This document shows, in pieces, positions 54,308-61,711 of a DNA stretch of 64,000 bases. Source of the stretch: Terriglobus sp. TAA 43 (lineage in GTDB: Bacteria; Acidobacteriota; Terriglobia; Terriglobales; Acidobacteriaceae); assembly GCF_000800015.1 (NCBI RefSeq), contig NZ_JUGR01000001.1, forward strand, positions 2,170,001-2,234,000. Direction: 5' to 3'. The notes beneath the pieces are model-generated. The model was not told where the DNA came from. It saw only the letters and a list, made by a program, of their open reading frames with translations, and did not search any database. The first letter of the stretch is position 1, and each line of letters begins with the position of its first letter. Made by a program: the position numbers and the translations under genes.

Positions 54308-55417
54308 TTAGACCTGCGTATCTCCCTCTAGTGAATGAATCTTTGGCGGTTTAATGTGCAGCAGCCTGCGTCCGTAGCGAAATGCAATATGGACGCTCAA
54401 TGCAACACCTGTACCTATGAGCGTGGCCATCACGCGATGCAGTAGCACCTCGCGTGGTGGCTGGCGCGCAACCGCCAGTACGAAGCAGATGTAGCCAGTC
54501 AACGTGACGGCAAATGCGCCGTAATTGACCGTGTTCAGCAGATACGTGGCCGCCTGAAAAACCAGAACATAAAACGCAAGCCACATGCCGCTGGGATGAA
54601 ACTCCACCACAATCAGCGTGCATAGCGCCGCACCAATCAGAGTGCCTGTAGCGCGCAGCAGACCACGCGCCATGGTCTGCACAAACTCCGGCTTGGGAAG
54701 AAGCAGCGCGGTCATGGCTATCCAGTAAGCGCTCGTCCACGTTTGCGCCTTATAGATCCAGACAGCTACAGTCGCCGTTACAGCCATGCGCAGCGCAAAC
54801 TGAAATGTGCCACTGCCGGGTGAGAGCTGTTCCCTCAGAAAAGCTCTCTGGAATCGCGTTGGATCAAAATCGATGCGGCTGAACTTTGTATGTGCCTCCG
54901 GCAGCCACAAGCGGAAGACCCACAAAATCGCAAACTGCAGCAAGCCACCCGCAAGCACACCTGCCCCTCTCAGCAACGCGGAGTACAGCAGGTCATGCGT
55001 CGTTCCCGGCGTGTTCGGAGCTGCTGCCGAAATAACAAGGAAGATGCAGCATTGCTGCCCAACCCACGCGGTCGCGGTGCTGATGCTGTTGGAGAACGCA
55101 TAGAGAACAGCCCAAAGGATTGTTGTGAGTAGCAGCGCGACGGTATTGTCACGACACAACGCTCCTACGAGAGCAGAGAGGGCGATGCCGAACGAAGCTG
55201 CAAGCATCGCGCCCGAACGCGTAAACAACGGCTGCTGATAGGACCCGAAGCCCACACACTGCGCCCCGCCCACCATCAGCGCCGCAGTGCCGGGATAACC
55301 GTAGTGGATGCCCACAATCAACGGCAGCGCCAAGCCCGGCATGCAAAGCAATGCGTGCAGCGGCTCCGACTTGTGCCAGTCAAAACGGGCGACTAACTTG
55401 CGAACAGATTCAGACAC
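54308..55417 (-). CDS. FUSC-family inner-membrane protein
   Basis: A 369-residue protein with two sets of membrane helices (about residues 25-165 and 215-350) separated by a cytoplasmic stretch (FSRIDFDPTRFQRAFLREQL), the layout of the FUSC / aromatic-acid-exporter family. The second set has YWIAMTALLLPKPEFVQTMARGLLRATGTLIGA-type sequence, the family hallmark. No periplasmic adaptor or outer channel gene is adjacent, so export partners are unknown. Convergent with kdsC (6-base gap). Confidence 0.85.
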   Translation of the reverse strand: MSESVRKLVARFDWHKSEPLHALLCMPGLALPLIVGIHYGYPGTAALMVGGAQCVGFGSYQQPLFTRSGAMLAASFGIALSALVGALCRDNTVALLLTTILWAVLYAFSNSISTATAWVGQQCCIFLVISAAAPNTPGTTHDLLYSALLRGAGVLAGGLLQFAILWVFRLWLPEAHTKFSRIDFDPTRFQRAFLREQLSPGSGTFQFALRMAVTATVAVWIYKAQTWTSAYWIAMTALLLPKPEFVQTMARGLLRATGTLIGAALCTLIVVEFHPSGMWLAFYVLVFQAATYLLNTVNYGAFAVTLTGYICFVLAVARQPPREVLLHRVMATLIGTGVALSVHIAFRYGRRLLHIKPPKIHSLEGDTQV

Positions 55418-55512: not shown

Positions 55513-58275
55513 TCAGCGTTTGCCCAGCGCTACACGCAAACCGCCAAATACAGCGATGGGTGCTCCTGGTGCAAGGTAGGTCGTGTTGCGTACGGCATAG
55601 TCGCCCGAAGCATACGCCGTGAAAGGCCGCGCAACGAAGTTGCCATTCGCGTCATACGGCGTGGTGGCAAGCTGACCCGCCGTGTAGTAATGGCGGTTCA
55701 ACAGGTTGTTGATCTGCGCAAAGAGCTGGAAGTGTGAGGTGATGTTGTAGCTGGAGCCCAGGTTCACAACGCCATAACCAGGGCTCTTGCCGCTGCCCAG
55801 GTAGTAGACGCCATCGGCCTGATGCTGATTGTTCTCGTTGCCGCGAACATAGCTTGAGCCGATGAGGTTGAAGTCCGCGCTGATGCCCAGCTTCCGCAGC
55901 GGATGATAATCCGCGTAGAGCTTGAACATCTGCTGCGGCACCTGCGGAATGTTGTTGCCTGGCTGGATGGTAATTAATCCTCCATCCGCCACGCCCTTTT
56001 CGCCGCTCTTTGCATTGCTGTTGCTGCTGTTGCTGTCTGCTTCGATCGTCTGCGAGCTCTGATAAGTCGCCTGCAGGAAGGTGTATTCCGCACCCGCATC
56101 CAGCTTACGCAGATGTGCTGAAGCGGATGCCTCCACGCCTTGACGACGCGTCTTGCCAAAGTTCTGGAAGTATCCATAACCAGTGGCCTGTGCTGCCACG
56201 AACAACAAGTCATCGTAGTTGTTGGTGTGAAAGTATCCAGCGGACCAGCGATAGCGTCCATCAGGATTGCCACGGAAGCCGAATTCATAAGTACGGCTCA
56301 CCACCTGCTTCAACGGCGGGTCACTTACGAGCGCATTCGGCAGCGAGCAAGGGAAGTCCGGATCGGCGCAACCAAGTTCCGTAGATGTTGGGGCACGACT
56401 GCTTTCGCCGTAGTTGAAGTAGCCGTTGAGCAAACTGCTGGCCTTGTACACAATGCCTGCAGTCGGATTGAAGCGCTGGAAGTTGTTTACCGCTGTCAGC
56501 GTGCCGCGATAACTGGCAGGAGGCAGGCGATCCACATTGTTGATACTCGTGTGGTTGTAGCGTCCACCAACATTCAGCACCCACTTGTTCAGACTGAAGG
56601 TATCGGTCACGAAGAAGCTAGGCGTCGTTGTTGTGCTGTGCAGGTTCACACGGTTGTCGACTACTGAGCCGTCGTCGTCGGTGTACGTGCCATCCAGAAA
56701 TGCGTTTACGCGTGTGATGCTAATGCCATCCGCATTCAGATAGCCGAACTGACCCGTTTGTTGAAAGGTCAGCCCACCTCGATCAAAGCCTGCGCCCACG
56801 GAGAGCTTGTTATGCGTCGTGTTCCAGTTCAGTACGCCGCTGAAGCCATAGGCATGCTGTCGCGTAACGGTATCTGTGTCCACGCCGGTGCACTTCTCGT
56901 ATGGTTCATCCTTTTGCAGAGTCTGCGCGATGCAACGGAGATAAGGAAATGGAACCGTCGAAGCATTTTGCACGGTGCTGGGATAAGGAATACCCGCATT
57001 GGTCAGCGCTGTTTTGTCACCGGCGCTTAGCGTATACAACGACTGGTCAAAGCTATCGTCATTCGCATCGCCATTAGTGGTGTTCTGCCGCGTATAGCGT
57101 ACGTAAGCATTCGCGTTAATCGTTACAGAACTGGAGACCGCCTGCGTCACATTCAGAGTGGCGAAAGGTTGGTGCTGATACGTGACGTCGGGAATGGTGT
57201 ACACGCTGTTGTAGCCATGATTCAGGCCCGTGGTGCGATTGATGGCGCGGAAATCCTGCGTTCCATTGCCGGTCAGATTGTTGATAGCATAACCGCCAGA
57301 CAGTGACACCAGCGTGCCGCCATGCGCATAACCCAGCTTGGCAAAGCCCTGCCGCACACTGGACGGCGAAAGAGTACGCCATCCATCTTCGTGATACAGC
57401 GTGCCCGCAGCAAACCAGTTCCAAGGCCCCTTGTTACCGCCATACTCCGCATCCACTGCGCGACGACCGAACGAGCCTCCGTAACCGGAGATGACAAAGC
57501 CTTGGTTCGCAATACCGTCCTTGGTCTGCACAGCAATGGCGCCGCCAAGCGTGTTCAGGCCGTACAACGGATTCGAACCGGGGATCAGCTCCATGGAGCT
57601 GATGGCGACCTTCGGAATCAGATCCCACTGCACCACGTCGCCAAAGGGCTGATTCTGGCGGACGCCATCGAGATACACAGACAGTCCGGCAGGCGAGCCC
57701 ACAAGCGGCGACGCTGTGTAGCCGCGATAGTTCACATCGGGCTGGAACGGATTGTTCTGATTCTCGTTCACGTAGACACCATTCAGGCGGCGCTTCATGG
57801 CATCGGTCAGATCAATGGCATTCGTGTCGAGCAGCGTCTGCGCGGACAATGTCTGCACCGGCACGGGCACATCTTTCAGCGGCACATTCAAGGCGCCAAT
57901 CGGCGTGGACGCGATGACATCCACCGTCGTATTCACACCGCCCACGGTCAGGATGATGTCCTGTGTAGTAGTCGTTCCCGACCTCACAACGAAGGTGCTA
58001 CGCCGCTCCGCAAATCCCGGCTGCGAGAGTTCCAGCGTGTAACGGCCCGGAGCTAGATCACTGACCTGAAGCGATCCGTCTGAGGCGGCCTCCACCGCCT
58101 GCGAATGTCCACCGGTGGGGCCGTAAAGAGTACCTTTGGCAGAGATAGCGGCGCCCGAAGAGTCACGCACGTGAAGACGAAGATTACCGGCTGATGATTG
58201 TGCCGTAGCCGTGACGCATGCCTGGGCCAAACCTAACCCGGCGAGCAAAAGAGCGGAGCGTTGATATCTGTACAT
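55513..58275 (-). CDS. TonB-dependent outer-membrane receptor with carboxypeptidase-like N-terminal domain
   Basis: A 920-residue receptor: signal peptide (ALLLAGLGLAQACVTATAQ), a CarboxypepD_reg-like domain (about 25-105; NLRLHVRDSSGAAIS to RSTFVVRSG), the plug (about 120-250; VPVQTLSAQTLLD, PLYGLNTLGGAIAVQTKDG) and a 22-strand barrel. The plug lines LDGVRQNQPFGDVVQWDLIP and MELIPGSNPLYG are typical of ligand-gated channels. The C-terminal residue is not aromatic. The ligand is not readable. ATG at 58275 is chosen as it starts the signal peptide. Confidence 0.92.
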   Translation of the reverse strand: MYRYQRSALLLAGLGLAQACVTATAQSSAGNLRLHVRDSSGAAISAKGTLYGPTGGHSQAVEAASDGSLQVSDLAPGRYTLELSQPGFAERRSTFVVRSGTTTTQDIILTVGGVNTTVDVIASTPIGALNVPLKDVPVPVQTLSAQTLLDTNAIDLTDAMKRRLNGVYVNENQNNPFQPDVNYRGYTASPLVGSPAGLSVYLDGVRQNQPFGDVVQWDLIPKVAISSMELIPGSNPLYGLNTLGGAIAVQTKDGIANQGFVISGYGGSFGRRAVDAEYGGNKGPWNWFAAGTLYHEDGWRTLSPSSVRQGFAKLGYAHGGTLVSLSGGYAINNLTGNGTQDFRAINRTTGLNHGYNSVYTIPDVTYQHQPFATLNVTQAVSSSVTINANAYVRYTRQNTTNGDANDDSFDQSLYTLSAGDKTALTNAGIPYPSTVQNASTVPFPYLRCIAQTLQKDEPYEKCTGVDTDTVTRQHAYGFSGVLNWNTTHNKLSVGAGFDRGGLTFQQTGQFGYLNADGISITRVNAFLDGTYTDDDGSVVDNRVNLHSTTTTPSFFVTDTFSLNKWVLNVGGRYNHTSINNVDRLPPASYRGTLTAVNNFQRFNPTAGIVYKASSLLNGYFNYGESSRAPTSTELGCADPDFPCSLPNALVSDPPLKQVVSRTYEFGFRGNPDGRYRWSAGYFHTNNYDDLLFVAAQATGYGYFQNFGKTRRQGVEASASAHLRKLDAGAEYTFLQATYQSSQTIEADSNSSNSNAKSGEKGVADGGLITIQPGNNIPQVPQQMFKLYADYHPLRKLGISADFNLIGSSYVRGNENNQHQADGVYYLGSGKSPGYGVVNLGSSYNITSHFQLFAQINNLLNRHYYTAGQLATTPYDANGNFVARPFTAYASGDYAVRNTTYLAPGAPIAVFGGLRVALGKR

Positions 58276-58355: not shown

Positions 58356-58472
58356 GGAAGGAGTGAGCATTCAATTGCTAATTCCGGTGGAATCGATTTT
58401 GTTCAGGATTTTTTTCGAAATTCTTCCGCGCGACAACCACACCTTTCGTCACGCATAATTGGGTCGCGAATC

Positions 58473-59048
58473 ATGTCTTTCCTGTCCAGCAGCCCTGAAG
58501 GTTTTTTCAACCCATCCGCGACAATAGTTTCGGCGGAGAAAACGGCTGCGCTGCAGGCAGAAGTACTTTCGCTTTACGACACGCTGCACAGCCGATTGCT
58601 GCGCTATTCCGTCTCGTTTGGTCTGTCTGTCCCAGATAGCGAAGATGTTCTTCAGGAAGTATTTCTTGCCCTCTTCCGTCACCTGCGTGCCGGACGTTCA
58701 CGCGAAAATCTTCCCGGGTGGGTGTATCGCACCACACACAATCTCTCGTTGAAGCGACGCGCCAGCGTCCATGCCGAACAGAGGGTCGCTGTGGTGGAAG
58801 CCAACGCCGAAATGGAAGTCAGCGATCATCAACCCGGCCCTGAAGAAACGGTTCTCTTCCAGGAACGGCAGCATCGTCTTCGTGCAGTGGTGGAAGCGCT
58901 GACAGAGACAGACCGCATGTGTCTTCTACTGCGCGCAGATGGTTTGCGTTATCGTGAAATCGCATCCACACTGGGTATCTCACTGGGCAGTGTGGCAGCA
59001 TCTTTGGCGCGATCATTTGATCGCCTGCAGAGGATGGAACAACGATGA
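58473..59048 (+). CDS. ECF RNA polymerase sigma factor
   Basis: A 191-residue sigma factor. Region 2 reads DSEDVLQEVFLALFRHL then LPGWVYRTTHNLSLKRR; region 4 reads RMCLLLRADGLRYREIASTL then ISLGSVAASLARSFDRLQ. ATG at 58473 lacks a strong ribosome site but gives the normal length. It is coupled (ATGA) to the anti-sigma gene and diverges from the TonB receptor. Confidence 0.9.
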   Translation: MSFLSSSPEGFFNPSATIVSAEKTAALQAEVLSLYDTLHSRLLRYSVSFGLSVPDSEDVLQEVFLALFRHLRAGRSRENLPGWVYRTTHNLSLKRRASVHAEQRVAVVEANAEMEVSDHQPGPEETVLFQERQHRLRAVVEALTETDRMCLLLRADGLRYREIASTLGISLGSVAASLARSFDRLQRMEQR

Positions 59049-59857
59049 CCTCCCCTCACATTTCGGACGAGACACTCCTGCTGATGATGGATGGCGAGTT
59101 GCCCGAAAGTCATGCAGCCGCAGTCGCCGAACATCTGGAACAGTGCGCCGAATGTCGCCAGCGCCGCGATGCCTTTACCGGATTGCTCGCAGAAGTCACC
59201 GTGCTGGAACCGCAGGTCGCACCGCCGGATACCGTTCGCGAAGGCATGGCACAACGTATCGCGGTGACCGCAGAAGCACGCCGTCCCGCGTGGCTAAGTC
59301 CTCGGCTCATGATGAAGGTTGCCGCGGTTCTCCTGTTGGGCATCGGTGCGTTGGCCTATCGACACTTTTATGCACTGCCCCGCAACGCGATGGTTTCCTA
59401 CGAGGAAACCGGCCCGGAACCGAACCACAACATCACACCCGGAGCGGTGCGAAACGCGGACTTATCGGAACTGTGCATCATGCCGGATGACAACCTGGAT
59501 CCGGTTGTGACCCCGGAAAAACAGCGAGCGGTCTTTGAGGCTTATGGTCTGGATGATCGGGCCTCGCGCGCATACCAGGTGGACTACCTTATCAATCCCC
59601 AGCTTGGTGGCAATGACGAGTTTCAAAACCTGTGGCCGGAACCGTATCACGCTACAGTTTGGAACGCTCAGGCCAAAGACGCGCTGGAGACCCGCCTGCA
59701 CGGCATGGTGTGCAGCGGCCAGATGACACTGGAAGAAGCACAGCGTCAGATTGCCACTGATTGGATCGGCGCTTACAAAAAGACCTTTCACGCGGATCGC
59801 CCGGTTCGCGTACAGGCAGCCATCGACTCTGAATCCAAAGCCAGCGACGTGAAATAG
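59045..59857 (+). CDS. Zinc-finger anti-sigma factor with extracytoplasmic HNH-like domain
   Basis: A 270-residue protein. Residues 1-45 hold the zinc-binding anti-sigma domain (ISDETLLLMMDGELPES, then H30, C34, C37 as HLEQCAEC). One membrane helix lies near 90-106. Residues 130-247 follow a pattern I know from secreted HNH-type proteins: TPGAVRNADLSELC, YQVDYLINPQLGGND, NLWPEPY, then KDALETRLHGMVCSGQ and AQRQIATDWIGAYKK. Those proteins usually read VDHLIPLELGGSN; here the histidine is tyrosine (Y181) and the loop is altered, so catalysis is doubtful. C144 and C223 may form a disulfide. A sensing role is inference. Confidence 0.8.
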   Translation: MTSPHISDETLLLMMDGELPESHAAAVAEHLEQCAECRQRRDAFTGLLAEVTVLEPQVAPPDTVREGMAQRIAVTAEARRPAWLSPRLMMKVAAVLLLGIGALAYRHFYALPRNAMVSYEETGPEPNHNITPGAVRNADLSELCIMPDDNLDPVVTPEKQRAVFEAYGLDDRASRAYQVDYLINPQLGGNDEFQNLWPEPYHATVWNAQAKDALETRLHGMVCSGQMTLEEAQRQIATDWIGAYKKTFHADRPVRVQAAIDSESKASDVK

Positions 59858-59903: not shown

Positions 59904-60239
59904 TTACAGCGTCTTCAGATACTCCACCAGTTCCTTGATCTCTTCCGGCTTCAATTGATCCTTGAACGGCGGCATGGGGACCTTGCCGTTTTCAATGCGC
60001 TCCGTAACGGTCGCATCGGTGACCTTGGTGGTGCCATCGGCCAGCGTGCCGCGTGCGTACAGCCCCTTCAGGCCCGGCCCGATCTTCTTGTCGGTGCTGT
60101 CAGCGTTGTGGCACAGGGCACACTTCGCATCGAAGGTGGCCTTGCCGTGAGTGGCGGCCTCGCTCAACTGAGCGTGGGCGCCTGCGGCAAAGGTCAGCGT
60201 GGCGGCAAGGAGCGAAAGGGTCAGGGTCGGTCGCATCAT
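59904..60239 (-). CDS. Small secreted c-type cytochrome
   Basis: A 111-residue periplasmic monoheme cytochrome: signal peptide (LTLSLLAATLTFAAGAHAQ), heme motif CALCH near residue 44, GPGLKGLYARGTLADG, and the distal methionine in KVPMPPFKDQL, ending in the helix EIKELVEYLKTL. Start ATG 60239 (or 60236) follows aagga. It is downstream of the lipoprotein beta-propeller on the same strand (132-base gap) and may accept electrons from a periplasmic dehydrogenase not in the window. Confidence 0.9.
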   Translation of the reverse strand: MMRPTLTLSLLAATLTFAAGAHAQLSEAATHGKATFDAKCALCHNADSTDKKIGPGLKGLYARGTLADGTTKVTDATVTERIENGKVPMPPFKDQLKPEEIKELVEYLKTL

Positions 60240-60371
60240 TTTCCTTTCCGGCAAACTGGCTGCCGGATATGTTCTGTCCTAAAGATAGACGGCAAACGGA
60301 GATACAAAGTCGCGGTGCCGTTGCAACGGCTTTGCATGCTGTGAAACTCCGTCTGCCGTAGTACGGAAAGT

Positions 60372-61445
60372 TTACGGCAGAACGACCAGTCCCCACGGGC
60401 TGCCGCCGGACGGTGCCTTAGCTTTGACCGTAAGTGTAGCCAAATCAACAGCGCTTACGTCGTTCGATGGGCCATTGGCGGAATACAGCATCTTGCCGTC
60501 AGGCGAAAGCGCAATTCCCCACGGACGCTTGCCCACTGCCACGTCACCGGCAACCGTGTTGGTGGCCGTATCAATGGCGGCAACTTTGCCACCGCGGCCT
60601 GTGGAAACGTAAAGCTTGGAAGCATCCGGCGACAGCAGCACAAACATGGGCTTTACTTGTCCTGGCGTTCCCATCTCAATCGTCTTCACCATCTTGTGCG
60701 ACGCAACGTCCACAACCACCACGGAAGCGTCGTTCTCAGCATTGATGTATGCCGTCTTGCCGTCGGCAGTGAAAGCAACATTGCGCGGACGGTGGCCCAC
60801 CTTGAAGGTGCCCGTGATCTTCTTCTTCACCGGATCCAGCACGGAGATTGTACCCGTCTCTTCGCTGGTGACGTAAACGAACGTACCGTCCGGCGAAGTC
60901 TTTACACCTTCCGGCTGGGCACCCATCTTCATCGTGGCTTCGACCTTGCCCGAATCAATGTCGATGATGGAAACAGCCGATTCGTCCTCGTTGGAGACGT
61001 AAATCTTCTTGCCGTCCTTGCTCAGATCAAAGTTCTCCGGATCGCTGCCACCGGGGATGATCTTCACCAGCTTGTTCTGCGCCACATCAAAAACACCAAT
61101 ACCGTCCTTCGAGTGATCGCTGGGCGGCAGCGTGCTCTCATCTACGCCGGGGCCGGCAATAGGCGTTCCGCTCAGCGCAATGTAGACCGTCTTGCCGTCG
61201 AGAGCAGCGTGGATACCGCGCGGACGCGTACCAATCTTCAACTGCTCCAGCTGCGTCATGGTGGTCGCGTCAATCACTGTCAGTTCGCCGGAGACTTCAT
61301 CCGTCACATAGATACGCGGCCCCTTCGCCGTGTCCATGGTCAGCGGAGCGGGACCAGAGGCTGTTTCGGTTTTCGGAGCAGATTTGCAGCCGGTCAGAAC
61401 CATGAGAAGGCCTGCCGAGAGAAGAAGGGAATGCGAAGAGCGCAT
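60372..61445 (-). CDS. YncE-type beta-propeller lipoprotein
   Basis: A 357-residue lipoprotein (lipobox LTGC, signal SSHSLLLSAGLLMVLTGC). The mature part is a seven-bladed YVTN-type propeller with repeats such as GPRIYVTDEVSGELTVID, KKIYVSNEDESAVSIIDID, TFVYVTSEETGTISVLD, KTAYINAENDASVVVVD and KMLYSANGPSNDVSAVD. Such proteins bind ligands or partner proteins; none is enzymatic by itself. The start is set by aaagga. Outer-membrane anchoring plus a nearby TonB receptor recalls BtuG-type surface propellers, an analogy only. Confidence 0.87.
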   Translation of the reverse strand: MRSSHSLLLSAGLLMVLTGCKSAPKTETASGPAPLTMDTAKGPRIYVTDEVSGELTVIDATTMTQLEQLKIGTRPRGIHAALDGKTVYIALSGTPIAGPGVDESTLPPSDHSKDGIGVFDVAQNKLVKIIPGGSDPENFDLSKDGKKIYVSNEDESAVSIIDIDSGKVEATMKMGAQPEGVKTSPDGTFVYVTSEETGTISVLDPVKKKITGTFKVGHRPRNVAFTADGKTAYINAENDASVVVVDVASHKMVKTIEMGTPGQVKPMFVLLSPDASKLYVSTGRGGKVAAIDTATNTVAGDVAVGKRPWGIALSPDGKMLYSANGPSNDVSAVDLATLTVKAKAPSGGSPWGLVVLP

Positions 61446-61711
61446 GCGATGTCCTTTTGCAAAAAGTTGAAGGTAGCTTGATTCCGTATTCTGTCCGGCC
61501 CGATCCTGTTCAGGCTTTTCACCGCAGTGGCGCAACGCGGCGGCTGGCGTTGCCGATTATAAAAGCCCACCGTACGGATGGCGATTCCTACGGACCCGCC
61601 ATTCTCCGCTACGAATGGATCAACCCATCGTAGTAGCCCCGCCGTAACGCTTGACAAGGCATGGAAGAGTTTTCATGAATGGGTCAAGTTCGAGAATTTG
61701 CGGAGGCTTCT
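61446..61711. promoter_or_regulatory. Divergent control region of two beta-propeller genes
   Basis: 266 bases that must hold both promoters. I see no convincing -35/-10 pair or operator. Ribosome sites are visible at both ends (aaagga toward the minus gene, ggagg at 61702 toward the plus gene). Confidence 0.35.

Follow-up and report, generated by a model that had tools for sequence, protein, structure and literature searches.

What is a domain that resembles a nuclease doing on the periplasmic side of a bacterial anti-sigma factor? The question is raised by a gene pair in a stretch of 64,000 nucleotides from Terriglobus sp. TAA 43 (contig NZ_JUGR01000001.1, positions 2,170,001 to 2,234,000; hereinafter the window), which codes for an extracytoplasmic function (ECF) sigma factor followed by an anti-sigma factor whose C-terminal block recalls HNH or His-Me nucleases. 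The reading that we favor, with a probability of roughly 60%, is that the pair constitutes a switch for an outer-membrane TonB-dependent receptor, with a dead nuclease domain as its periplasmic part. Comparison across relatives shows the predicted architecture, its single recruitment, the loss of a conserved histidine and the tie of a promoter-like element to the receptor and the system. The receptor pairing and this element say most about the role of the system: production of the receptor appears to be under the control of a membrane-anchored anti-sigma switch.

The gene pair, the receptor and the promoter-like element

In the window, the stop codon of the sigma gene and the start codon of the anti-sigma gene overlap as ATGA (coordinates in Table 1). 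The product of the second gene is, judged from its sequence, a zf-HC2 anti-sigma factor paired with the ECF sigma factor: its PF13490 match lies above the gathering score, the Hx3Cx2C motif is present, and the basic residues N-terminal of its helix suggest, if we assume the positive-inside rule, an N-in, C-out orientation. The C-terminal block of about 125 residues, whose domain has one copy in the genome, reads TPGAVR...C144...VDY181LINPQLGG...NLWPEP...VC223SG...AQ..IA.DW.GAYKK in translation. An earlier note on this DNA had claimed a zinc-finger N-terminus, one membrane helix and such a block, and the translation together with the Pfam zf-HC2 match bears this out; its anti-sigma reading is supported, while it missed the paired TonB-dependent receptor and the promoter-like element.

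The survey of ECF operons that the earlier note had called for reveals that the architecture recurs. Proteins with the zinc finger, membrane helix and domain in one frame are encoded at 110 loci among the matches fetched and called, and a sigma gene lies upstream, as in the window, at 105 of them; two further fused copies (L242, L243) come from outside the class, and the culturable T. roseus DSM 18391 has an orthologue (L003). The fused form was sought in Acidobacteriota and by one narrow pattern scan of genome contigs. Fused or stand-alone, the domain is present in 41 of 200 genomes of the family when searched with the domain itself, and in 119 of 399 genomes of the class and 17 of 396 of the phylum when searched with a profile, these samples overlapping. 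Because the same domain recurs so often in the family and class, the fused arrangement is not a product of chance. The class profile search gave 139 matches, from which 80 not yet represented by a locus were fetched, the weakest and some others being left out; ten duplicate loci (L123, L124, L133, L136, L138, L140, L142, L144, L149 and L152) were dropped from locus calling, and L079 was dropped too.

A divergent TonB-dependent receptor gene accompanies the pair at 73 of 102 loci, where, with short flanks, a locus scored as lacking it is one in which none was seen. Among 25 loci with wide flanks, 18 have a receptor by BLAST to that of the window, two more by Pfam (L297, L311), and five have none. 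The codirectional receptor of L307, which has the element before it, shows 35% in BLAST to the window's receptor and gives only OMP_b-brl_4 in Pfam. Pfam at E values up to 0.001 finds in the window's receptor only the CarboxypepD_reg, Plug and barrel domains, and no STN domain. The genome has about 40 Plug-domain matches.

Unprompted word counting recovers ATTCC-N15-GTTC in 40 of 70 non-redundant upstream regions, against at most 4 in three shuffles; 75 of 105 upstream regions were used (29 lacked an anchor and one was too short), 70 remaining after thinning. On the opposite strand the element reads CTGAACA-N14-GGAATA with an upstream A-tract and nearly fixed spacing, which from general knowledge of ECF promoters we take to be a -35/-10 pair, and it is mostly directed away from the sigma gene, at the receptor. 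Receptor-directed copies, allowing up to 2 mismatches and a spacing of 14-18, occur in 77 of 103 upstream regions and sigma-directed copies in 43, with 7 matches in 105 coding control regions. At a spacing of 14 in the trimmed region the receptor-directed count is 67 of 103, and self-directed copies at fixed spacing number 38 of 103. Over the 102 loci, the receptor-directed element is found at 72, namely at 70 of the 73 with a divergent receptor and at 2 of the 29 without, these being the same loci in which the element was found, with genome scans as the independent check.

Such a scan of 14 carrier and two non-carrier genomes, which we selected, yields 16 sites in 10 carriers and none in either non-carrier or in the other four carriers; the reversed control pattern gives one match. 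Eight distinct sites lie directly before a receptor of the same subfamily, two before the sigma gene and one before the anti-sigma gene, the rest facing a Gluconate_2-dh3 gene (one), a GFO/IDH/MocA oxidoreductase gene (one) or nothing clear (three). The receptor N-terminus profile was trained on 15 receptors (the window's and those of 14 loci, some with doubtful starts), most of them from genomes that were also scored, and the receptor count is not fully independent. Among 12 scanned carriers without a divergent receptor at the scored sigma locus, seven have a receptor-directed site, within about 4 kb of the anti-sigma gene in G299, G302 and G254 and elsewhere in G034, G130, G169 and G506; G351, G459, G493, G520 and G218 have no receptor-directed site.

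In the window's genome the nearest paralogous sigma factor (L315, 35% identity) also precedes a zinc-finger anti-sigma factor, whose long C-terminal region looks unrelated by eye. At L005, from a Terriglobus metagenome-assembled genome, the Tyr-bearing domain is kept in the anti-sigma frame and the receptor frame and element are present, but neither a zinc-finger part nor a sigma gene was found there.

What the switch may sense and what reads the element

In the switch that we favor, the zinc-finger domain would hold the ECF sigma factor in the cytoplasm, and one helix would cross the inner membrane to a periplasmic part formed by a catalytically dead, disulfide-held HNH-type nuclease domain. 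A signal, either the ligand itself or the substrate-loaded receptor by way of the CarboxypepD_reg domain at its periplasmic N-terminus, would alter the nuclease-like domain; the anti-sigma factor would then release the sigma factor, probably by regulated proteolysis, and the free sigma factor would start transcription at CTGAACA-N14-GGAATA and so increase expression of the receptor gene and, in certain genomes, of the sigma operon as well.

We propose the contact between receptor and anti-sigma factor and the proteolysis on the model of FecARI-type signaling. The FecA-FecR-FecI and FoxA-FoxR-FoxI systems likewise associate a TonB-dependent receptor gene with an ECF sigma factor and with an anti-sigma factor that has a single helix and places its C-terminal domain in the periplasm; the receptor co-regulation is compared here through conserved linkage and the promoter-like element, that is, at the level of sequence. 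However, the anti-sigma factor here is of the zf-HC2 type and not FecR (Pfam, E values up to 1), its periplasmic domain is HNH-like, and the window's receptor begins with CarboxypepD_reg, no STN having been found. According to PMC11637429, the signaling domain of a TonB transducer contacts the periplasmic domain of the anti-sigma factor and protects the latter from proteolysis. We tentatively posit, at somewhat less than even odds, that Acidobacteria evolved a trans-envelope circuit of their own alongside FecARI: a zinc-finger anti-sigma factor would have taken over a secreted HNH nuclease, now dead, as its module for signaling in the periplasm, CarboxypepD_reg would take the place that STN has in TonB transducers, and the ancestral substrate groove may still read a ligand.

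A possible but doubtful alternative is that the dead nuclease domain senses a ligand of its own (a nucleic acid or nucleotide, a sugar, or a metal via D180, N195, K211, D212 and E215), with the receptor as a target gene only. These five residues are kept in all 111 aligned anti-sigma copies, so the site may survive, but they could also be structural; it also counts for this alternative that in several genomes the receptor is unlinked and the element is still there. The fold of RsiV, from the RsiV/sigma-V pair of Bacillus subtilis, presumably differs from that of the HNH-like domain. The extracellular part of RsiV is proposed to be itself the sensor (PMC4183432), a precedent for an anti-sigma factor that senses directly. 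RsiV binds the active enzyme lysozyme, whereas here the domain itself seems to be enzyme-derived. Against direct sensing by the domain, the close and usually divergent pairing at the 73 loci favors involvement of the receptor. A nucleic-acid signal was considered, and nothing seen in the gene neighborhoods spoke in its favor.

There is a strong comparative case that the sigma factor reads the element. Across 150 genomes of the order a strict form of the element is found in 11, with one copy each, all of which carry the anti-sigma factor, and the reversed strict pattern in none; in the comparison with carriers, made by a Fisher test, this amounts to 11 of 26 known carriers and 0 of 106 genomes searched that lack the fused form, the remaining 18 (G875-G892) not being among the genomes searched for the domain. 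It is unlikely that another regulator reads the element and that the sigma factor has other targets: the tie between them is drawn from comparison, and the self-directed copy at fixed spacing is limited to 38 loci, but among these 150 genomes the strict element was found only in those with the system, and the element precedes the receptor also when this is unlinked and faces the sigma operon in some loci.

A broad regulon in the window's genome was rejected, there being 17 matches at spacings of 14-17 and only four at 14. The site in the window is the only one at spacing 14 before a receptor; two of the other three lie inside long open reading frames, one has no called frame nearby, and none has flanking A-tracts. 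There is a hint that sugar oxidation may belong to the regulon of some genomes, too few to call. One of the genes that the element faces, at L346:1562-2197 and L363:6794-8500, codes in G506 for Gluconate_2-dh3, with what by eye resembles a GMC oxidoreductase encoded next, and in G254 for a GFO/IDH/MocA oxidoreductase.

Probable kinship with HNH nucleases and loss of the histidine

The domain is evidently homologous to secreted stand-alone proteins. These are short, 103 of 110 displaying a hydrophobic stretch before the domain in a crude hydropathy test of the open frame, and occur in bacteria, in numerous viral contigs, some of which are near-identical, and on 50 plasmid records that span many genera; two from Methylocella plasmids are annotated as HNH endonucleases. 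In the viral contigs (L037-L124) secreted ExDH nuclease-like stand-alones are common, with 211 of 287 candidate stretches confirmed and 80 kept. A tblastn search with one viral stand-alone gave no match in 50,697 phage records at E values up to 1e-3.

Curated libraries do not recognize the domain. Pfam on the whole anti-sigma protein, at E values up to 1, gives zf-HC2 and no match in the C-terminal block, which on its own has one unrelated match (E 0.22); for the protein, NCBIfam gives sub-threshold anti-sigma matches only, and PHROGs and PDB none. Naming the domain through these libraries was rejected, as no match lies above cut-off. This, together with low Z and high E values, would fit a domain that is not HNH-derived, the stand-alone family being a separate secreted fold with a look-alike motif; we consider this improbable, for comparisons made independently of one another agree. 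Pfam weakly matches two of four stand-alones to HNH (0.042) or Endonuclea_NS_2 (0.057, 0.1), the remaining two giving one unrelated match and none. The AlphaFold2 model of the domain (mean confidence, pLDDT, 90.1) contains a strand-strand-helix unit with the H/Y position at the end of the first strand. Foldseek with the window model alone returned mostly noise in the 50 rows shown, largely maltose-binding protein fusions, with two Cascade rows; the stand-alone model gave a clearer result, and the structural neighbors cover several His-Me nuclease families. At the sequence level, EVDH aligns with EVHH of Cas8-HNH, and of the four PDB sequences that a window-led profile (A3) matches, three are Cas8-HNH variants (E 0.21-0.25) and the fourth is unrelated. 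When compared by hhalign with 25 HNH proteins from the family, the domain aligns to them, at low probability, around the motif, the place of alignment not being independent since these 25 (of 30 loci) were cut by a pattern containing DH...GG...N.

The fold check that the earlier note asked for thus has models and profiles pointing weakly but consistently to HNH/His-Me nucleases, and its claim of an HNH fold is supported by lines that are concordant, each weak by itself; a nuclease ancestry of the domain is a good inference. With Cas8-HNH, EcoKMcrA, Gme HNH and the NucA/EXOG type the domain appears, from its model, to share the strand-strand-helix core, and its stand-alone relatives the D-H...GG...N-L pattern. 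It differs from them in the likely disulfide, the added C-terminal helix, secretion, and the loss of the presumed general-base histidine in most of the anti-sigma clade.

Across 222 aligned domains, from which L007 and L116 were dropped as short or broken, position 181 is His in 111 of 111 stand-alones and Tyr or Phe in 104 of 111 anti-sigma copies, a copy being counted as anti-sigma if it has the zinc-finger motif or Tyr, which moved one row (L005, with Tyr and no readable zinc finger). This His is presumably the general base, going by the HNH motif; the window protein has Tyr181 in its stead. At positions 153, 160, 178, 180, 181, 195, 211, 212 and 215, 107 of 110 stand-alones, a set selected for the presence of His and with L232 omitted, show the signature RKEDHNKDE. 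It occurs in 0 of 110 zinc-finger anti-sigma factors, because His is missing from the Y/F copies and K160 from all seven His copies. Other signature residues have changed to differing degrees in the Y/F copies: 90% of them have Q, A, R or E instead of K160, whereas R153 persists in 38% and E178 in 71%; a Leu has become Pro185 in every anti-sigma copy. All 110 anti-sigma factors have both C144 and C223, and a disulfide between them is likely because 4 of the 5 stand-alones lacking one have lost both. The His-to-Tyr replacement and the two conserved cysteines thus hold as the earlier note had described them.

The anti-sigma domains form one side of a branch with an SH-aLRT (approximate likelihood-ratio test) value of 99 in a 167-row tree, for which L232 was dropped and the viral stand-alones were thinned to about a third. 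The same branch receives 99/92, with a bootstrap not fully settled, in a careful 115-row tree with the H/Y column masked and L035, L172, L215 and L232 dropped. The recruitment onto an anti-sigma factor, supposed in the earlier note, comes out on the tree as a single event. The seven His copies lie in three places within the Y clade, with 4 changes between H and Y/F in the larger tree and 5 in the careful one, the number of reversals being uncertain. Tyr and His codons are one base apart. The pattern reads as one recruitment with Tyr ancestral, followed by relaxation of position 181; His seems to have been lost at the anti-sigma root and regained later by few changes, given this placement of the His copies within the Y clade.

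From the loss of residues, the nuclease domain looks catalytically dead in the anti-sigma factors. Two qualifications apply. In 7 of 111 anti-sigma copies (L130, L146, L156, L157, L225, L226 and L227) position 181 is His, which led us to reject a loss of His in all of them; the 7 may be an undercount, G395 and G511 from the family of L225-L227 having been left out. The role of the domain as a periplasmic sensor is putative. That the domain is still a nuclease or other hydrolase, as the His copies and the retained D, N and helix residues might suggest, is highly improbable given the Y/F at the presumed general base in 104 of 111 copies, the mostly changed K160 and R153 of these Y/F copies and the full signature in no zinc-finger anti-sigma factor.

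Neighboring genes, coordinates and significance

For the FUSC_2 protein encoded downstream of the receptor, BLAST gave no match among the 25 loci with wide flanks, many of these loci ending before the corresponding position. Past the anti-sigma gene, on the other strand (59904-61535), are genes for a cytochrome c and a YVTN/lactonase-like beta-propeller, both conserved in L002-L006; farther along, L004 and L006 also have a di-haem CCP_MauG peroxidase.

Table 1. Features of the locus, in window coordinates
Feature	Position	Strand	Basis
FUSC_2 membrane protein downstream of receptor, possible operon partner	54308..55417	-	Pfam
Divergent TonB-dependent receptor, CarboxypepD_reg + Plug + barrel	55513..58275	-	Pfam; start codon chosen by eye
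Promoter-like element TGAACA-N14-GGAAT, pointing at the receptor gene	58381..58405	-	Word counting, pattern scans
ECF sigma factor, 191 aa	58473..59048	+	Pfam Sigma70_r2 and r4_2 above cut-off
Anti-sigma factor with HNH-like periplasmic domain, 270 aa	59045..59857	+	Translation, Pfam
zf-HC2 zinc-finger part, residues 15-38 (H30, C34, C37)	59087..59158	+	Pfam PF13490, E 1.3e-6
Membrane helix, about residues 89-106	59309..59362	+	Sequence reading; hydropathy maximum 1.7
HNH/His-Me-like domain, about residues 126-250	59420..59794	+	Stand-alone alignment, AlphaFold2 model, structure/sequence comparison
Cys144, likely disulfide partner of Cys223	59474..59476	+	Conservation, joint loss
Tyr181, where stand-alones have invariant His	59585..59587	+	Alignment
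Cys223, likely disulfide partner of Cys144	59711..59713	+	Conservation, joint loss

Class I anti-sigma factors (ASDI, zinc-binding zf-HC2) share with the present protein the Hx3Cx2C motif, the single helix, a C-terminal extracytoplasmic domain and a gene directly after that of the sigma factor; what sets it apart is an HNH-like C-terminal domain without a match to any Pfam family. The main text of PMC7406223 contains none of the words HNH, nuclease or Acidobacteri. In the literature searched, we found no account of an anti-sigma factor that bears an HNH-derived domain; the large 2021 ECF re-classification lies outside it and may list one.

The evidence suggests a dead enzyme reused as a signal relay. 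If true, this would plainly illustrate how an enzyme can be converted to a domain for transmembrane signaling in bacteria, set on a tree with active-looking near relatives, and it would offer a handle on the regulation of TonB-dependent receptors in Acidobacteria, with a testable promoter element.
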